Shown in pieces: positions 5,646 to 21,961 of a stretch of 64,000 nucleotides of DNA (its first letter is position 1; the number at the start of each line of letters is the position of its first letter). Both the position numbers and the translations under genes were made by a program. The DNA lies in NCBI GenBank assembly GCA_016201275.1, contig JACQDB010000138.1, positions 124,001 to 188,000 on the forward strand, in the 5' to 3' direction. The notes under the pieces are model-generated. The model searched no databases. It saw only the letters and a list, made by a program, of their open reading frames with translations, and had not been told where the DNA came from. This DNA comes from Acidobacteriota bacterium (GTDB taxonomy: Bacteria; Acidobacteriota; Blastocatellia; UBA7656).

Positions 5646-6359
5646 TTACTTATGGCTTGAGCCAGCCGTTTTTAACTCGGTTTGCGTGATCTCTCTTATA
5701 TCGCAGAGAAATTCATCGAGTTTATTGCGAAACGCGGCATCGAGAACCGCTATCGTATAGGCAGAAATATTCGTGAATTGCTTTTTTAAATACTGGTCAA
5801 CCAGTGATTGGGAAATCGCCAGATTCGTTTTCTGGTTAATTTCATCAATGATTTCTCGTAGTGTTTTACCGTCAGGTAGATCCGCCACCGGAAGAATATC
5901 GCTTTCCCGAAACTCTAGCCTTCTGTCAATTTCGGCGCGCAGCATATTGAAATATGGCCGGAAAAACTCCCGGTCTTTTGAGGCAAGATGGGTATAGTCA
6001 TTTAGGATTGAATTCGCTATTTCATATTCTTCGGAAATGCTAGAAGCAACATTCTTCGCATCTTCAGCTACTAAAGCGTCAAAGAATCTCCGTGGCGATA
6101 TTTTTAAGCCGCGAACCACCTCCATTAAAACTAGAAAACCTGTATCTTTATTGGCCTTATTCAAGATGTTCCAAACCGTAGTGTTGCTTACGGCCTTGCC
6201 TGTAACTCTTTCAACGTCGTAAGCATTCATGTTTTTTTCATCCATGAATCGCTTTACGACAATTGCCAATTTTCCTTGCCAATCATTCACATTACGAAAT
6301 TTATCACAAGCTCTACCCCGCATATTAAATTTATTTAATAATTTTGCTTGACATTCCAT
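5646..6359 (-). CDS. XRE-type repressor (putative immunity regulator)
   Basis: 237 residues. Residues about 28-95 hold a helix-turn-helix region (MNAYDVERVTGKAVSNTTVW) followed by a long helical C-terminal part that may mediate oligomerisation. No LexA-type peptidase motif is visible. The ATG at 6359 has AAAGG seven bases upstream. Its 5' end overlaps the spacer of a perfect rightward promoter (6348-6375) that drives a small Cro-like gene, which is the CI/Cro layout of temperate elements. It is probably the master repressor of the rightward early operon. Confidence 0.65.
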   Translation of the reverse strand: MECQAKLLNKFNMRGRACDKFRNVNDWQGKLAIVVKRFMDEKNMNAYDVERVTGKAVSNTTVWNILNKANKDTGFLVLMEVVRGLKISPRRFFDALVAEDAKNVASSISEEYEIANSILNDYTHLASKDREFFRPYFNMLRAEIDRRLEFRESDILPVADLPDGKTLREIIDEINQKTNLAISQSLVDQYLKKQFTNISAYTIAVLDAAFRNKLDEFLCDIREITQTELKTAGSSHK

Positions 6360-6375
6360 TTTTGACCTTTATAAT
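6348..6375 (+). promoter_or_regulatory. consensus early promoter
   Basis: TTGACA (6348-6353), a 16-bp spacer, and TATAAT (6370-6375): both hexamers are perfect. It drives the Cro-like gene at 6407 and probably the long rightward operon. It overlaps the first codons of the divergent repressor, so repressor binding and leftward transcription could both control it. Confidence 0.8.
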
Positions 6376-6406: not shown

Positions 6407-6622
6407 ATGAGTGCAATTTACGACAACGAAATAATCCAAAGGGCAGCCAAGAGAAAGGGGTTAAATCCTACTCAGGTGGCTGCACTGTCAGGTAAATCTG
6501 TGCCAACTGTTTATGAGGTTTATAAAGGTAGCGATAAAGTAAACCTCAATACCCTTCAGTCTGTTGTTGAGGCGGTTGGCCTGCAAATGCGGGAGATATT
6601 TACACGAAAGACTGCCGCCTGA
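6407..6622 (+). CDS. Cro-like HTH protein
   Basis: 71 residues starting MSAIYDNEII. Residues 10-55 match a minimal XRE domain (LNPTQVAALSGKSVPTVYEVYKG), with little beyond it. The ATG at 6407 is required because the consensus promoter starts transcription near 6382, after the upstream in-frame ATG at 6344. It is the first gene of the rightward operon and divergent from the XRE repressor, so a Cro-type role in the lysis/lysogeny-like switch is inferred. Confidence 0.7.
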   Translation: MSAIYDNEIIQRAAKRKGLNPTQVAALSGKSVPTVYEVYKGSDKVNLNTLQSVVEAVGLQMREIFTRKTAA

Positions 6623-7849: not shown

Positions 7850-7878
7850 GGCTAGGTCTCGTTTGCTTGTTAAACGAG

Positions 7879-7920
7879 CGCCCGGTATCCGGTTCAATCA
7901 GCCTCGCCGGATACCGGGCG
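7879..7920 (+). other. intercistronic perfect hairpin
   Basis: 14-bp perfect inverted repeat (7879-7892 with 7907-7920) around a 14-nt loop. There is no T-tract, so it is not a normal terminator. It sits 32 nt before the start codon of the next gene and resembles a second hairpin at 11998-12060 in position. It may control mRNA processing or translation, or be a protein-binding site. Confidence 0.6.
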
Positions 7921-7952
7921 TAAAACCACGGAGGCTGACGCATGAGGCTGAA

Positions 7953-9011
7953 ATGATAAAAGGATTAACCGACCGGGGCGGCAGCTTGCCGCGCATTGGC
8001 GAACTCAGAAAAGGGGCCGCCAAGGGCAATAGCAATGCTCCGGGTAAAGACCTTCCCTATTTTCGGTTTACAACAAAATTGCCGGAGGTGGCAGAGGCGT
8101 TTGTCGCGCATTACGGTCAGGAGCCTGCGGAGATCGAGATCACCTTTCCCTATCAGACGACGGACGAAAACTTCGAAGCCTGGCAGGAGGAATGGGTAGC
8201 CGGGGGCTTGCGACATCGCTGCGATGGCAATACCTGCGTATTGCTGCGCGACCCGGGAGGCAAATTGAACCAGAGCAACGCCCCCTGCCCGGGCAAATGC
8301 AAACCGGTTGGCCGGCTGGGCGTCATCCTGCCGCGCCTCGGACGCTTGGCTACGGTTACGGTCTTGACCACGAGCCTGCACGACATTACGGCGATTCATC
8401 AGAGCCTGCTGGTGATTGAGACGCTGCGCGGCAGTTTGCGCGGCATTCCGTTTATCCTGCGCCGCAGGCCGAAGCGCATCAGCATCCCCGGCAAAGACGG
8501 TAAGCCGGTGAAGGCGGAAAAGTGGTTAATCGAGCTAGAGGCTGCGCCACAATGGGTAACCCACCAATTGATTGCCATGGAGCAGGCGGCGCTCCCGCCT
8601 GCTCCTCTGGATGACAGCGACGAAAGCGGCACCGAGCAGATCGGCGATGTCACTACAGATGGCGAAATCATTGAGCATCCGCCGATTTTGGAGGAAGCGG
8701 ATAGCCACCACAACCCCAGTCACGTTGAGCCGCAGAAACAGCCCCTGATTGCTCAATGCTGTGCGATGATCGAGCGTCTATCGGCACTCGAACATGAAGA
8801 ATTTCGCAAAGGCGACGGTCGAAAAGGCCGCATCCTGAATCACCTTCGCCGCACCGCCAGGCAGCACAATTACGAATGTGACTGGCGCAGTTTGGAGGGC
8901 CTGAATGACCTGACGGTTGGCGAGCTGAGTGATTATTACAAAGTTTTGGAAGCGGAAGAAGCCCGGCTGCACCCCATAAAGGCAGCCGAAGAAGAGGAGC
9001 CACTGCCCTAA
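7953..9011 (+). CDS. Gp3-like recombination directionality factor
   Basis: 352 residues from the ATG at 7953 (GAGG upstream). The order of segments matches the family of phiC31/phiBT1 gp3-like recombination directionality factors: MIKGLTDRG...LPRIGELRKG at the N-terminus, a Cys-containing central part (RHRCDGNTCVLL...PCPGKCK), then VGRLGVILPRLGRLATVTVLTTS and RGIPFILRRRP. The last 110 residues are acidic and variable. Such proteins switch large serine integrases from integration to excision, but here the only integrase seen is a tyrosine recombinase, so the partner is unclear. The match is from memory of the family pattern. Confidence 0.6.
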   Translation: MIKGLTDRGGSLPRIGELRKGAAKGNSNAPGKDLPYFRFTTKLPEVAEAFVAHYGQEPAEIEITFPYQTTDENFEAWQEEWVAGGLRHRCDGNTCVLLRDPGGKLNQSNAPCPGKCKPVGRLGVILPRLGRLATVTVLTTSLHDITAIHQSLLVIETLRGSLRGIPFILRRRPKRISIPGKDGKPVKAEKWLIELEAAPQWVTHQLIAMEQAALPPAPLDDSDESGTEQIGDVTTDGEIIEHPPILEEADSHHNPSHVEPQKQPLIAQCCAMIERLSALEHEEFRKGDGRKGRILNHLRRTARQHNYECDWRSLEGLNDLTVGELSDYYKVLEAEEARLHPIKAAEEEEPLP

Positions 9012-9125: not shown

Positions 9126-9950
9126 ATGAGGACTATGAAGACAGTTTATCCATTTGCAGAACAGGGCAATTTTACGCAGCAACATAACCTCACCTATGAC
9201 GTTATGATGCGGATGCTAAGCCCTTCGGCATGGATGATCCTTTGCTTCATCCTCAGAAACACGAAAGGGTTTCACCGGGAAAAAGTACCGCTCTCTTATA
9301 CCGACTTCCTGGAAGGAACCAGCATTAAAAGCTTCTCCACGATCAAAAAAGCCATTGATGAACTTCTGGATTCCGAAACCCCTGAGAATAGGCGAAACCC
9401 GTTTATCACCTTTCAAGGCGGCGATACTGGCAAGAACTGGAAGGCTGCGGAGTACGGGTTAAACCGAGAATTCAAGGTTGAAATAGCTACTACAGAAACT
9501 GTAGCAGGTTCTGAAAAAGCTACTACAAAAACTGTAGCAGGGGCTACTACAGAAACTGTAGCAGGTTTTGAAAAAGCTACTACAGTTTCTGTAGCACATG
9601 ATAAAGAAAGTAAGAAAGAAACAAAGAAAAAGAAACTTCTTGTTTTTTCCGTCACCGATCCTCTTGAGCGAGTGATAGCCGAAGAATGCAATTTGAATCC
9701 CGATAACTTGACGAGAGGCCAAAAGGAAGAGATCGAAAAAGTTGTTCTTTGGCTGCACCAGGAATACGACGCAAGTCTTGAACAGAAGTATCCCGATGCT
9801 GAAAAGCGAAGCCGGGTGATGATGAATCACGTGCGGAAATTTGGCAGTTGGCACCGCGAGGTTGAATGGAAAGGAAAATCACCTCGCCCAAGATGGCTCA
9901 GAGAAAAATGGGAATCCTTTCGCAAATGGATTCGCAACGGCAAAAAGTGA
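9126..9950 (+). CDS. replication initiator with internal iteron origin (lambda O-like)
   Basis: 274 residues. The N-terminal 110 residues match the winged-helix DNA-binding domain of phage O/DnaD-type initiators (LTYDVMMRMLSPSAWMILCFILRNTKGFHRE...LSYTDF). Residues about 121-157 are a low-complexity repeat (ATTETVAG type) because this stretch of DNA is four iterons. The C-terminal domain (about 180-274) would contact the helicase or its loader. The start may be 9126 or 9135; the second has GAGGA at short spacing. It lies directly upstream of the zinc-finger gene and dnaB, the order initiator-loader-helicase. Confidence 0.75.
   Translation: MRTMKTVYPFAEQGNFTQQHNLTYDVMMRMLSPSAWMILCFILRNTKGFHREKVPLSYTDFLEGTSIKSFSTIKKAIDELLDSETPENRRNPFITFQGGDTGKNWKAAEYGLNREFKVEIATTETVAGSEKATTKTVAGATTETVAGFEKATTVSVAHDKESKKETKKKKLLVFSVTDPLERVIAEECNLNPDNLTRGQKEEIEKVVLWLHQEYDASLEQKYPDAEKRSRVMMNHVRKFGSWHREVEWKGKSPRPRWLREKWESFRKWIRNGKK
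9486..9595 (+). repeat. four 20-bp iterons (putative origin of replication)
   Basis: Copies at 9486-9505, 9519-9538, 9543-9562 and 9576-9595, spaced 33/24/33 bp. Consensus GCTACTACAGAAACTGTAGC, itself a dyad (CTACAG-AAA-CTGTAG). Copy 2 has one change, and copy 4 has the central AAA replaced by TTT, i.e. that core is inverted. They are followed by a 54-bp A-rich purine tract (9597-9650), a likely unwinding region. The whole set is inside the initiator gene, as in bacteriophage lambda. Confidence 0.75.
9597..9650 (+). other. A-rich purine tract, putative DNA-unwinding element
   Basis: 54 bp, almost purely A/G on the + strand up to 9635, then turning to a T-run. It adjoins iteron 4 and encodes a Lys-rich linker in the initiator. 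Position and composition match the AT-rich unwinding region that flanks lambda iterons; unwinding itself is inferred. Confidence 0.55.
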
Positions 9951-9956
9951 GAACCA

Positions 9957-10229
9957 ATGGAGTCAATCAAAGAGATTCAGGATTCAGTATTGCCAGGCGG
10001 TCACTCGGTGCGCCAGCTTCTGAAACTCGCCGAGCGGATGGCAGCGCGAGCGCCGAAGACCGACGAGCGGTGTCCCGATTGCCGGGACACCGGATGGATT
10101 CACGTTGAACCGGACGATCCGCAGCGCGGCGTACGCCGCTGCCGACGCCCGGAATGTGTGGCGAAGCGCAGGGCGGTCATCGAAGCCCGGCGAGAGGCTC
10201 GACAACAGGAAGGAGACGAAGATATTTAA
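9957..10229 (+). CDS. zinc-finger protein in the helicase-loader position
   Basis: 90 residues. The middle has CPDCRDTGW and then CRRPEC, the Cys arrangement found at the N-terminus of DnaC/DnaI-type helicase loaders (CxxCxDTGW...C..C), but the AAA+ ATPase domain of such loaders is absent. The C-terminus is a basic, charged helix. It starts 7 nt after the initiator and its stop overlaps the dnaB start (TAATG), so translation is coupled. It could be a minimal loader or an adaptor between initiator and DnaB (inference). Confidence 0.6.
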   Translation: MESIKEIQDSVLPGGHSVRQLLKLAERMAARAPKTDERCPDCRDTGWIHVEPDDPQRGVRRCRRPECVAKRRAVIEARREARQQEGDEDI

Positions 10230-11584
10230 TGGGCGTACTCTTGCCAAAATCGAATAGCGGTGATCCGTTTATTGAGCGCGGGCTGCCGATAAACCTTGAG
10301 GCGGAGCGTACCATACTCGGCGCGATCCTGCTCGATAACGCGGTCTGCAATCAGGCGATGGAATTGATGCGCCGCGATGATTTCTTTCTCGACTCCCACC
10401 GACGAATTTACGACAAGATGGTTTTCCTGCACGAGCGCGGCTCCTCGATTGACCTGGTCACGCTGTCGGAAGAATTGCGCCGCGCACAGGAGTTTGAGCA
10501 GGTTGGCGGCGCGACCTATATCGCGTCCCTGATTGACGGTGTGCCGCGCACCGACACCATCGAGCCGTATGTCAAGATCGTCAAATCCAAAGCCCTCAAA
10601 CGCAAAGTGATTACCGTCTCCCAGCACCTGATCAACCAGGCGTTCGGCGAAGAACTGGAAGACGAGCAGCTTCTCGACCTGGCGCAGCAGCAGATTTTCG
10701 GAGTCGTTGAAAACCAGGTGCGCGGTCAGTTCCGCCTGGCGATTGATGTTGCACAGGAGCAGATGGAGAAGGTGCAGGAACTGGCCGGACGCAACGTACT
10801 GATTACCGGGGTGCCGACCGGTTTTACGGATTTCGATCATTTGACCTGCGGTTTGCAGAAGCAGGATTTGATTATCCTCGCCGCAAGGCCTTCCCTAGGG
10901 AAGACGGCGCTTGCTCTCAATATGGCCGAATCTGCGGCGCACAACAACGCTACGGTTGGCATCTTCAGCCTGGAGATGTCTGCCGAGCAACTCGTCCTTC
11001 GCCTGATCAGTTCCTACGCCCGCATAGACGCACACCGGCTCAAGAATGGCTATCTGACCGCCGAAGAGTGGGCGCGGGTTGCCAATGCGCTCCGGCAGTT
11101 AGCCGAGCACAAAATCTACATTGATGACACGCCGGGGATAACGGTAGGCGAGATGCGCGCCAAAGCCCGAAGGCTTAAGGCCGAACACGGTCTTGATCTG
11201 GTGATTGCCGACTACATCCAGTTGATTACCGGTCGCGGCAAAGTTGAGAACCGCACCCAGGAGGTATCACAGATTTCCCGCGACCTGAAACTATTGGCAA
11301 AGGAACTGGACGTGCCGGTAATCGCGCTCTCACAACTTTCGCGCAAGGTGGAAGAGCGCAGCGATCACCGACCGCAACTCAGCGACCTGAGAGACAGTGG
11401 TGGAATTGAGCAGGACAGCGATCTCGTCTGCTTCATCTATCGCGATGAAGTATATGGCGAGACCGATGAAAACCGAGGGGTGGCGGAGTTAATCATCGCC
11501 AAGCAACGCAACGGGCCGACGGGCAAAGTATCGCTTTGCTTCCTGAAGGAATACACGAGGTTTGAAAACCTCTGGCGGGAATAG
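10229..11584 (+). CDS. dnaB: replicative DNA helicase DnaB
   Basis: 451 residues, normal length for DnaB. The N-terminal primase-interacting domain (residues about 18-120, NLEAERTILGAILLD) is followed by a linker and the RecA-like domain with Walker A AARPSLGKTALAL (about 218-230), Walker B LVIADYIQLI, and the DnaB motif SQISRDLKLLAKELDVPVIALSQLSR...DLRDSGGIEQDSD. The start ATG at 10229 overlaps the preceding stop; the longer frame from 10154 lies inside the upstream gene. It supplies the element's own hexameric helicase, presumably loaded at the iteron origin. Confidence 0.95.
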   Translation: MGVLLPKSNSGDPFIERGLPINLEAERTILGAILLDNAVCNQAMELMRRDDFFLDSHRRIYDKMVFLHERGSSIDLVTLSEELRRAQEFEQVGGATYIASLIDGVPRTDTIEPYVKIVKSKALKRKVITVSQHLINQAFGEELEDEQLLDLAQQQIFGVVENQVRGQFRLAIDVAQEQMEKVQELAGRNVLITGVPTGFTDFDHLTCGLQKQDLIILAARPSLGKTALALNMAESAAHNNATVGIFSLEMSAEQLVLRLISSYARIDAHRLKNGYLTAEEWARVANALRQLAEHKIYIDDTPGITVGEMRAKARRLKAEHGLDLVIADYIQLITGRGKVENRTQEVSQISRDLKLLAKELDVPVIALSQLSRKVEERSDHRPQLSDLRDSGGIEQDSDLVCFIYRDEVYGETDENRGVAELIIAKQRNGPTGKVSLCFLKEYTRFENLWRE

Positions 11585-20228: not shown

Positions 20229-20591
20229 ATGAGCGTACAACAGGCAAACGTACTCGTTGAGTTTTATGAAGGAATTATTGAAAAGGCACTCAGGCGCGTG
20301 CTTGATGAGCGCCATGCCTTATTTCCTGCCACCGATCCAGAACTTGCCGGTCAGATAGCCAGGATTAACGCCAAACCGAATATCACGGTGCTGGAGGCAG
20401 CGTTGTTGCTGAACTGTTCGGACTCCCACTTATACGCAAAGATCAAGGCCGCCAAAAGGAAGACAACCGGTTACCCAATTCCCTTCCTTGATCTGGATGG
20501 GGTGTACGTTTTCCCCAGGGAACGGCTCATTGAGTGGGCGGAAAGCGAGAAAGAGCGAAAGACCTTGAAATTGGAAAAGGGAGGTGCTTAA
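20229..20591 (+). CDS. excisionase-like helix-turn-helix protein
   Basis: 120 residues with AGGTGAGG before the ATG. Residues about 50-110 form a MerR/HTH_17-type winged helix of excisionases: ITVLEAALLLNCSDSHLYAKIKAAKRK, then IPFLDLDGVYVFPRERLIEW. A helical N-terminal extension (1-45) is unusual for Xis proteins. It ends 40 nt before the integrase start, so it is the likely directionality protein for that enzyme (inference). It may also regulate the integrase gene. Confidence 0.7.
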   Translation: MSVQQANVLVEFYEGIIEKALRRVLDERHALFPATDPELAGQIARINAKPNITVLEAALLLNCSDSHLYAKIKAAKRKTTGYPIPFLDLDGVYVFPRERLIEWAESEKERKTLKLEKGGA

Positions 20592-20631
20592 CTATGCGCC
20601 GTCTCCGACCGCTCCCGAAAGGAGAGCGTGT

Positions 20632-21861
20632 ATGACTGTTTCAAAACGAGGTAAAGATGGCATTTGCTCTGTCGTATTTCAGATCGAAGGGCAAACCCAT
20701 TGCTTCACATTCAATGGCAAGAAAGGAATGCCGCTGATCACGGATAAGCGGCTGGCAAAAGAAAAGGAGGTCGAACTCAAGAAGCAGATTCGCATGGGCA
20801 CGTTCCTACAGGAATCGCCCGTTCAGAACTTCGGGCGGTTCTACAAGGAAGTCTTCATGCATTACTCGAAGGATTACAAGTCGGAGTTGGGCCAAGACTT
20901 CGACGAGTATTACGGGCGGCGGCTGATCGAGGAATTCGGCCATCTGAAGTTTTCGCAGATTACGCCACGCCAGATCGAACGGTTTCTGATGAACTTGGCG
21001 AAGACCAAGACGAAGCAAGGAAGACTGTTTGCGCCGGTGACGGTCCGAATGTTTTACGAACGCCTTAACCGGACGTTTAACCTGGCGCGGCGCGAGCGGG
21101 TTTTCCTGGGCGAAAACCCCTGCCGGATGGTCAACGCCGAAATTCTCAAGAGCTTTCCGACCTGGCGTCCGAGGGAGAGATGGCTAAATCAGCACGATGA
21201 TGAAGAGGAGCAAAAGCTCTTCAACGAACTCAGTCCTGTTCTTTCGCCTTTGTGCCGTATCCTCCTTCATACCGGCCTCCGTCCGCCGAAGGAGATCCTG
21301 TTGATGGAAAAAGATCACGTAAATTTGACGGACAAGGTGCTGCGTTATAAGGGCGATAAGATGAAAATGATTCCTCCTCATTCTGTGTTCGTCGCCAACG
21401 GCAAGGATGGCACGACCCGCATGGTTCCCTTGAACCAGACGGTCAGGCGCATCTTTGAAGTGCTGGTGGGCGACGAAACGACCGGTCGATGGTTGTTTGC
21501 CAAAAACGGCCAGCCGATCAAATCCATCAAGAAAGGTTTTTCGGCGGCCTGCGAACGGGCCGGAATTGAAGACCTGAGGCCGTATGATCTGCGCCATACT
21601 TTCGCAACGCGCCTGGTCGAGCGCAATGTGCAGACAATCATCATTTCAGAGTTGCTCGGTCACACGCAGCCATTACAGGGCTTCGGTCATGCGTCTCGTA
21701 TCACCCCGGGCTATGCGCACGCGACCTATGACGCGATGCGCCGGGCGGTGGATTCGCTCGAATATCCGCCGCAAATCACGGCTTTCGAGCAGATGTCGAG
21801 CAAAAATCGAGCAAATGACCATGAGGTTGAAGTCGGAAATCAGATCGTGAAGGCAGGATAA
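20632..21861 (+). CDS. int: tyrosine recombinase / integrase
   Basis: 409 residues from the ATG at 20632 with AAAGGAG upstream. N-terminal arm-binding and SAM-like domains (about 45-165) are followed by the catalytic domain: first Arg in HTGLRPPKE (R217), [10 protein letters not shown] (R321, H322), ELLGHTQ (H344) and the nucleophile Tyr in GYAHATYD (Y361). Where many integrases have HxxR, this one has YDLR. A short insertion (LQGFGHAS) separates the LGH and Tyr motifs. The stop is 28 bp from the 3' end of tRNA-Val(GAC), which identifies the likely attachment site. Confidence 0.9.
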
Positions 21862-21888
21862 GTGTTTGGGATACTTGAAAAGGAAAGA

Positions 21889-21961
<73 letters not shown>

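Follow-up and report, generated by a model that had tools for sequence, protein, structure and literature searches.

In phage lambda the replication origin lies inside the initiator gene O (PMC6022878, PMC7466680). In a search for arrays across phage O genes, judged against synonymous codon shuffles and recovering lambda's annotated iterons, in-gene iteron arrays were found in 12 of the 13 genes tested, lambda's included, the exception being that of Rhodococcus phage REQ2. The independent cases are fewer than 12: iterons are common to the Acinetobacter IME284/Escherichia pair, and to Providencia/Salmonella MS2 LVA. The arrays lie mostly between codons 93 and 171; that of Aphanizomenon phage Yong-DA, which has a longer protein, is at codons 262–327.

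The lambda-type, in-gene arrangement is already known, and the stretch of DNA analysed here (64,000 nucleotides, "the window") is a further example and a well-supported origin candidate. Our reading, to which we give a probability of roughly 0.87, is that it contains the replication origin of a temperate, contractile-tailed phage of about 103 kb, at which dimers of an O-like initiator would occupy iterons within the initiator gene, an adjoining tract would be opened, and DnaB would be loaded.

Iterons and A-rich tract in the initiator gene

The gene at 9126–9950 (+ strand, 274 aa) may start at its fourth codon, an ATG at 9135. Judged by PHROG, Pfam and hhalign comparisons, it is a divergent lambda O-type initiator: it matches phrog_18020 ("replication initiation O-like", E 1.3e-7) and, at 20 bits (E 1e-3), falls below the curated cut-off of 28.7 bits for PF04492 (Phage_rep_O), a family that its distant viral relative L002 (IMG/VR contig 3300045996_001613) passes at 45 bits. 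A profile of the initiator and L002 aligned by hhalign with five phage O proteins, including lambda's, at 97.7% probability (E 1.8e-12) over residues 15–115. This range, encoded at 9168–9470 (+), is the putative winged-helix-like N-terminal DNA-binding domain, with helices seen in a low-confidence model; the AlphaFold model of the initiator is unusable (pLDDT 40). Close relatives of the initiator numbered none in the phage collection, none in genome contigs (queried with a two-sequence alignment) and one in viral contigs.

Four iterons, all on the plus strand, make up an array 360–470 bp into the coding sequence: iterons 1 (9486–9506) and 3 (9543–9563) both read GCTACTACAGAAACTGTAGCA, iteron 2 (9519–9539) reads GCTACTACAAAAACTGTAGCA, and iteron 4 (9576–9596) reads GCTACTACAGTTTCTGTAGCA. 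The unit that they share, GCTACTACARWWWCTGTAGCA, has copies at 9486, 9519, 9543 and 9576, giving the start-to-start spacing of 33/24/33 reported in the preliminary description; the length given there, 20 bp, is better replaced by 21 bp, in which 9-bp arms (CTACTACAG/CTGTAGCAG) flank three central A/T pairs. Three of the four copies have a perfect dyad in their inner 15-bp core, CTACAG-AAA-CTGTAG. A pattern scan of the window, allowing up to three mismatches, found the four iterons at zero mismatches (0.00 expected), and sites with zero or one mismatch on either strand of the 6.84-Mb genome are confined to the initiator gene. No comparable dyad array was found in the 15 other window genes tested, one of which has a simple CTTTTGCC repeat.

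The iterons also code for protein, namely the linker C-terminal to the DNA-binding domain, where iterons 1–4 specify ATTETVA, ATTKTVA, ATTETVA and ATTVSVA. One possibility is that the repeats serve the protein, as a flexible repetitive linker that arose by recent codon duplication and has no function as DNA: the spacings are all multiples of three, the iterons encode a peptide repeat (ATTxTVA), and the second iteron pair is a 91% copy of the first. Duplication leaves unexplained both the dyad symmetry and the inverted core of iteron 4, CTACAGTTTCTGTAG, an exact reverse complement of the core shared by iterons 1 and 3, CTACAGAAACTGTAG; the inversion retains the site and turns ET into VS in the peptide, and a site kept while two residues change indicates selection on the DNA. 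When the iteron stretch was recoded synonymously with the protein held fixed, none of 200,000 rounds reached either the observed identity between copies (114, against a recoded mean of 87 and maximum of 108) or the observed dyad score (23/24, against a recoded maximum of 22). Arrays in other O genes are, moreover, out of frame, as in lambda (20/24/23). What is conserved is therefore the iteron DNA and not the encoded protein: codon recoding rejects a protein-only repeat, which we consider very improbable. Homologues keeping the protein repeat without the DNA repeat, the outcome named beforehand as adverse to an origin, were not seen; L002 has other letters and retains a dyad array in its DNA.

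Beside the iterons is an A-rich purine tract (9599–9636, +), presumed from its base composition and position to be the DNA-unwinding element. The tract, first described as 54 bp long, is real, and its purine-rich part covers about the first 38 bp of that length, the remaining end being T-rich. Its best 50-mer is 78% A+T and 70% purine (76% and 70% in lambda), values reached at just one other place in the 103-kb element, and begins 21 nt past the aligned start of the last iteron (22 nt in lambda). The tracts beside the last iteron in IME284, CBP1 and APEC have 84–94% A+T and 66–78% purine.

The replication genes and their prophage

The initiator belongs to a series of features in the order rightward promoter, Cro-like gene, RDF-like gene, O-like initiator, zinc protein and DnaB. 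The presumed start of this rightward operon is a perfect sigma-70-type promoter match at 6348–6375 (+; TTGACA-16-TATAAT, 12/12 positions, a consensus match only). The first gene is of the Cro/C1 helix-turn-helix type (6407–6622, +; HTH_26, E 1.4e-5, above cut-off), and a Gp3-like recombination directionality factor-like (RDF-like) gene is found at 7863–9011 (+; PF18897, E 7e-29). Gp3-like RDFs are usually linked to serine integrases; the one at 7863–9011 sits in an element with an integrase of the tyrosine type.

A helicase gene is present downstream of the initiator, and both of the neighbours claimed in the preliminary description, a zinc-finger protein and a full DnaB, were found. The former, a 90-aa zinc-finger-like protein recognized from its sequence (9957–10229, +; CPDC...C...C, a motif of the form CxxC...C), is a candidate helicase adaptor; the latter is a 451-aa replicative helicase (10229–11584, +; PF03796, E 2e-109; PF00772, E 3e-29), whose ATG overlaps the stop codon of the zinc protein gene. 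Among the three genes of the module, Pfam and PHROG searches recognized neither a P-like nor an AAA+ loader, leaving only the zinc protein. Other O modules likewise pair with DnaB, so the missing lambda P-type loader is variation within the kind and does not define the origin.

It is possible, if doubtful, that the zinc protein is a minimal helicase adaptor with no AAA+ domain, loading the phage DnaB together with the O-like initiator; if so, such "zinc-only" loading would represent, in this phylum, a variation on the scheme of lambda. The zinc protein is 49% identical over 35 aa (E 3e-7) to the C-terminus of an O-like Rep from a genome of the same family (L062), a fusion of zinc motif and Rep suggesting that the zinc protein may work with the initiator. 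Searches by tblastn or scan found no convincing relatives of the zinc protein, and at the loci of related DnaB proteins the upstream genes are of other kinds and a comparable in-gene array is absent. The L062 Rep (L062:5211–6506, −; genome G397), with its C-terminal zinc motif, adjoins a ParA-like gene, and has in-gene GCGGTACCGCAGTACCGCAGT repeats ahead of its domain.

The element carrying these genes is bounded by perfect 57-bp attachment-site repeats, AAAGGAAAGAATAGGCTCGAGCGG...GGTA, at C46:42518–42574 and C46:145879–145935. The right-hand copy (window 21879–21935) covers the 3′ part of a tRNA-Val (21890–21961, −), beside which is a tyrosine integrase (20584–21861, +; PF00589, E 1.7e-18; phrog_1). 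The 103,361 bp between the repeats, most of them outside the coordinates quoted in the preliminary description, include genes for terminase, portal, tail sheath, tape measure, baseplate and fibre, with a weak major-capsid match (E 3e-4). On this gene content the element is a complete-looking contractile-tailed prophage, of a temperate tailed phage. Its host is probably, as claimed, a member of the Acidobacteriota, a placement consistent with the nearest RpoD match among named genomes, from a Blastocatellia MAG (57%).

Other genes in the prophage include three of the DndC-like PAPS-reductase family and one HerA-like (L003:4103–10852, −, and L009:16031–17191, +), possibly DNA modification or defence cargo; a SNF2-type helicase resembling ZorD/DpdE and split by a LAGLIDADG/Hint (intein-like) stretch (L003:11501–14599, −, equal to C46:115501–118599); and a large ParB-like protein (L003:17096–18928, −, equal to C46:121096–122928).

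Origin, operator or partition site

By homology to lambda, the O-like initiator would bind the four dyad iterons as dimers through its N-terminal winged-helix domain, and the bound array would strain and open the adjoining A-rich purine tract. The phage DnaB would then be loaded at the opened tract, aided by the C-terminal domain of the initiator and probably by the zinc protein, while rightward transcription from 6348–6375 would supply the proteins and traverse the origin; replication after excision is proposed on the same analogy. A lambda-type origin in the O-type initiator gene of an excisable element, as first put forward in the preliminary description, is supported by the DNA-level constraint on the iterons, the match to the lambda O-family profile, the arrays in 12 of 13 O genes, and the attachment repeats bounding the prophage. 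Counting against it, the initiator falls short of the Pfam cut-off, and the 33/24/33 spacing departs from lambda's 20/24/23 and does not keep the sites in helical phase. Skew in the circularised element reaches its minimum not at the iterons but close to where the operon starts (window 6440). Gene orientation confounds this measure: the skew is zero for those genes of the positive arc that lie on the minus strand, so that transcription accounts for much of it, and it was dropped as evidence on the origin.

Another possibility is that the iterons are an operator, through which the initiator or a phage repressor regulates the operon (or at which handcuffing limits copy number), with replication starting at some other place, such as the vicinity of the divergent promoter at 6.4 kb. 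Iterons often also autoregulate, and the promoter match and Cro-like gene at 6.35–6.6 kb, together with the skew minimum near 6.44 kb, would fit such a model; against this, the skew tracks gene orientation, the array is inside a coding sequence and away from the promoter-like sites, and it is followed by an A-rich tract, as in the similarly laid out and proven origin of lambda. We regard an operator without an origin as unlikely, and still less likely is a partition (parS-like) or other nucleoid-protein site: the element does encode a ParB-like protein, but its gene (C46:121096–122928) is about 10 kb off, the odd, A-centred dyad resembles O-binding iterons, and the array is in an O-like gene, as in other phages. 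A replication origin of the lambda type thus remains our preferred reading. Few genetic tools exist for the phylum; an origin and initiator of one of its phages would now be defined in sequence, and could seed a replicating vector.

Comparison with the phylum, lambda and other phages

The rarity of this layout in the phylum, implied in the preliminary description, is not borne out: other genomes of the phylum carry in-gene arrays in O-like genes, so the layout is not unique to the window. L011/L064 (G120) has an O-like gene with a three-copy in-gene array, a DnaB gene next to it and an integrase nearby, and in the O-like genes of L035 and L037 arrays both precede and follow the winged helix; some O-like genes of the phylum, such as that of L012, have no in-gene array. 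In Rep genes of the same class with an O-like winged helix, the domain is flanked on either side by repeats at the DNA level; this holds for L037, L035 (G404, G412) and, less strongly, L040 (G339). Their SQL peptide repeats are nearly always encoded by AGCCAGCTC, and L037 contains 17 occurrences of GAGCCAGCT/AGCTGGCTC, where codon shuffling gave a mean of 2.9 and at most 7.

Lambda's origin resembles that proposed for the window in that the middle of the initiator gene contains four A-centred dyad iterons, right after the DNA-binding domain, with an A+T-rich, purine-biased tract beside the last of them. It is also similar in its surroundings, with a Cro-like gene and rightward promoter upstream and a helicase function downstream, so that the order in the window resembles pR-cro-O-P. 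The letters of the iterons differ, as does their spacing (33/24/33, all in frame, in the window; 20/24/23 in lambda); where lambda uses P and the host DnaB, the window phage has its own DnaB and a zinc protein, and it is a contractile-tailed phage of about 103 kb.

Closer in their helicase arrangement are Acinetobacter phage IME284 (Obolenskvirus) and Escherichia phage vB_EcoM_APEC, in which an O-like gene with in-gene iterons and an A-rich tract is followed directly by a phage DnaB; they differ from the window in having three iterons with other letters and 37/23 spacing, and in lacking a zinc protein between the two genes. A search of viral contigs for the exact pattern of the iteron pair returned nothing. 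The nearest initiator found, that of L002, matches at 49% over the DNA-binding domain; its gene likewise contains an array, in which the A-centred dyads keep the same frame relative to the codons, with 24/33 spacing and DnaB as the next gene, but the letters are CTGCAC-AAA-GTGCAG, in three clear copies, the A/T tract is weaker, and there is no zinc protein. An array with changed letters is what co-evolution of initiator and site within one gene predicts. The comparison points to in-gene iterons whose letters change fast as a general feature of O-type initiators; a single gene thus carries both the binding specificity and its sites, which move and co-evolve together.
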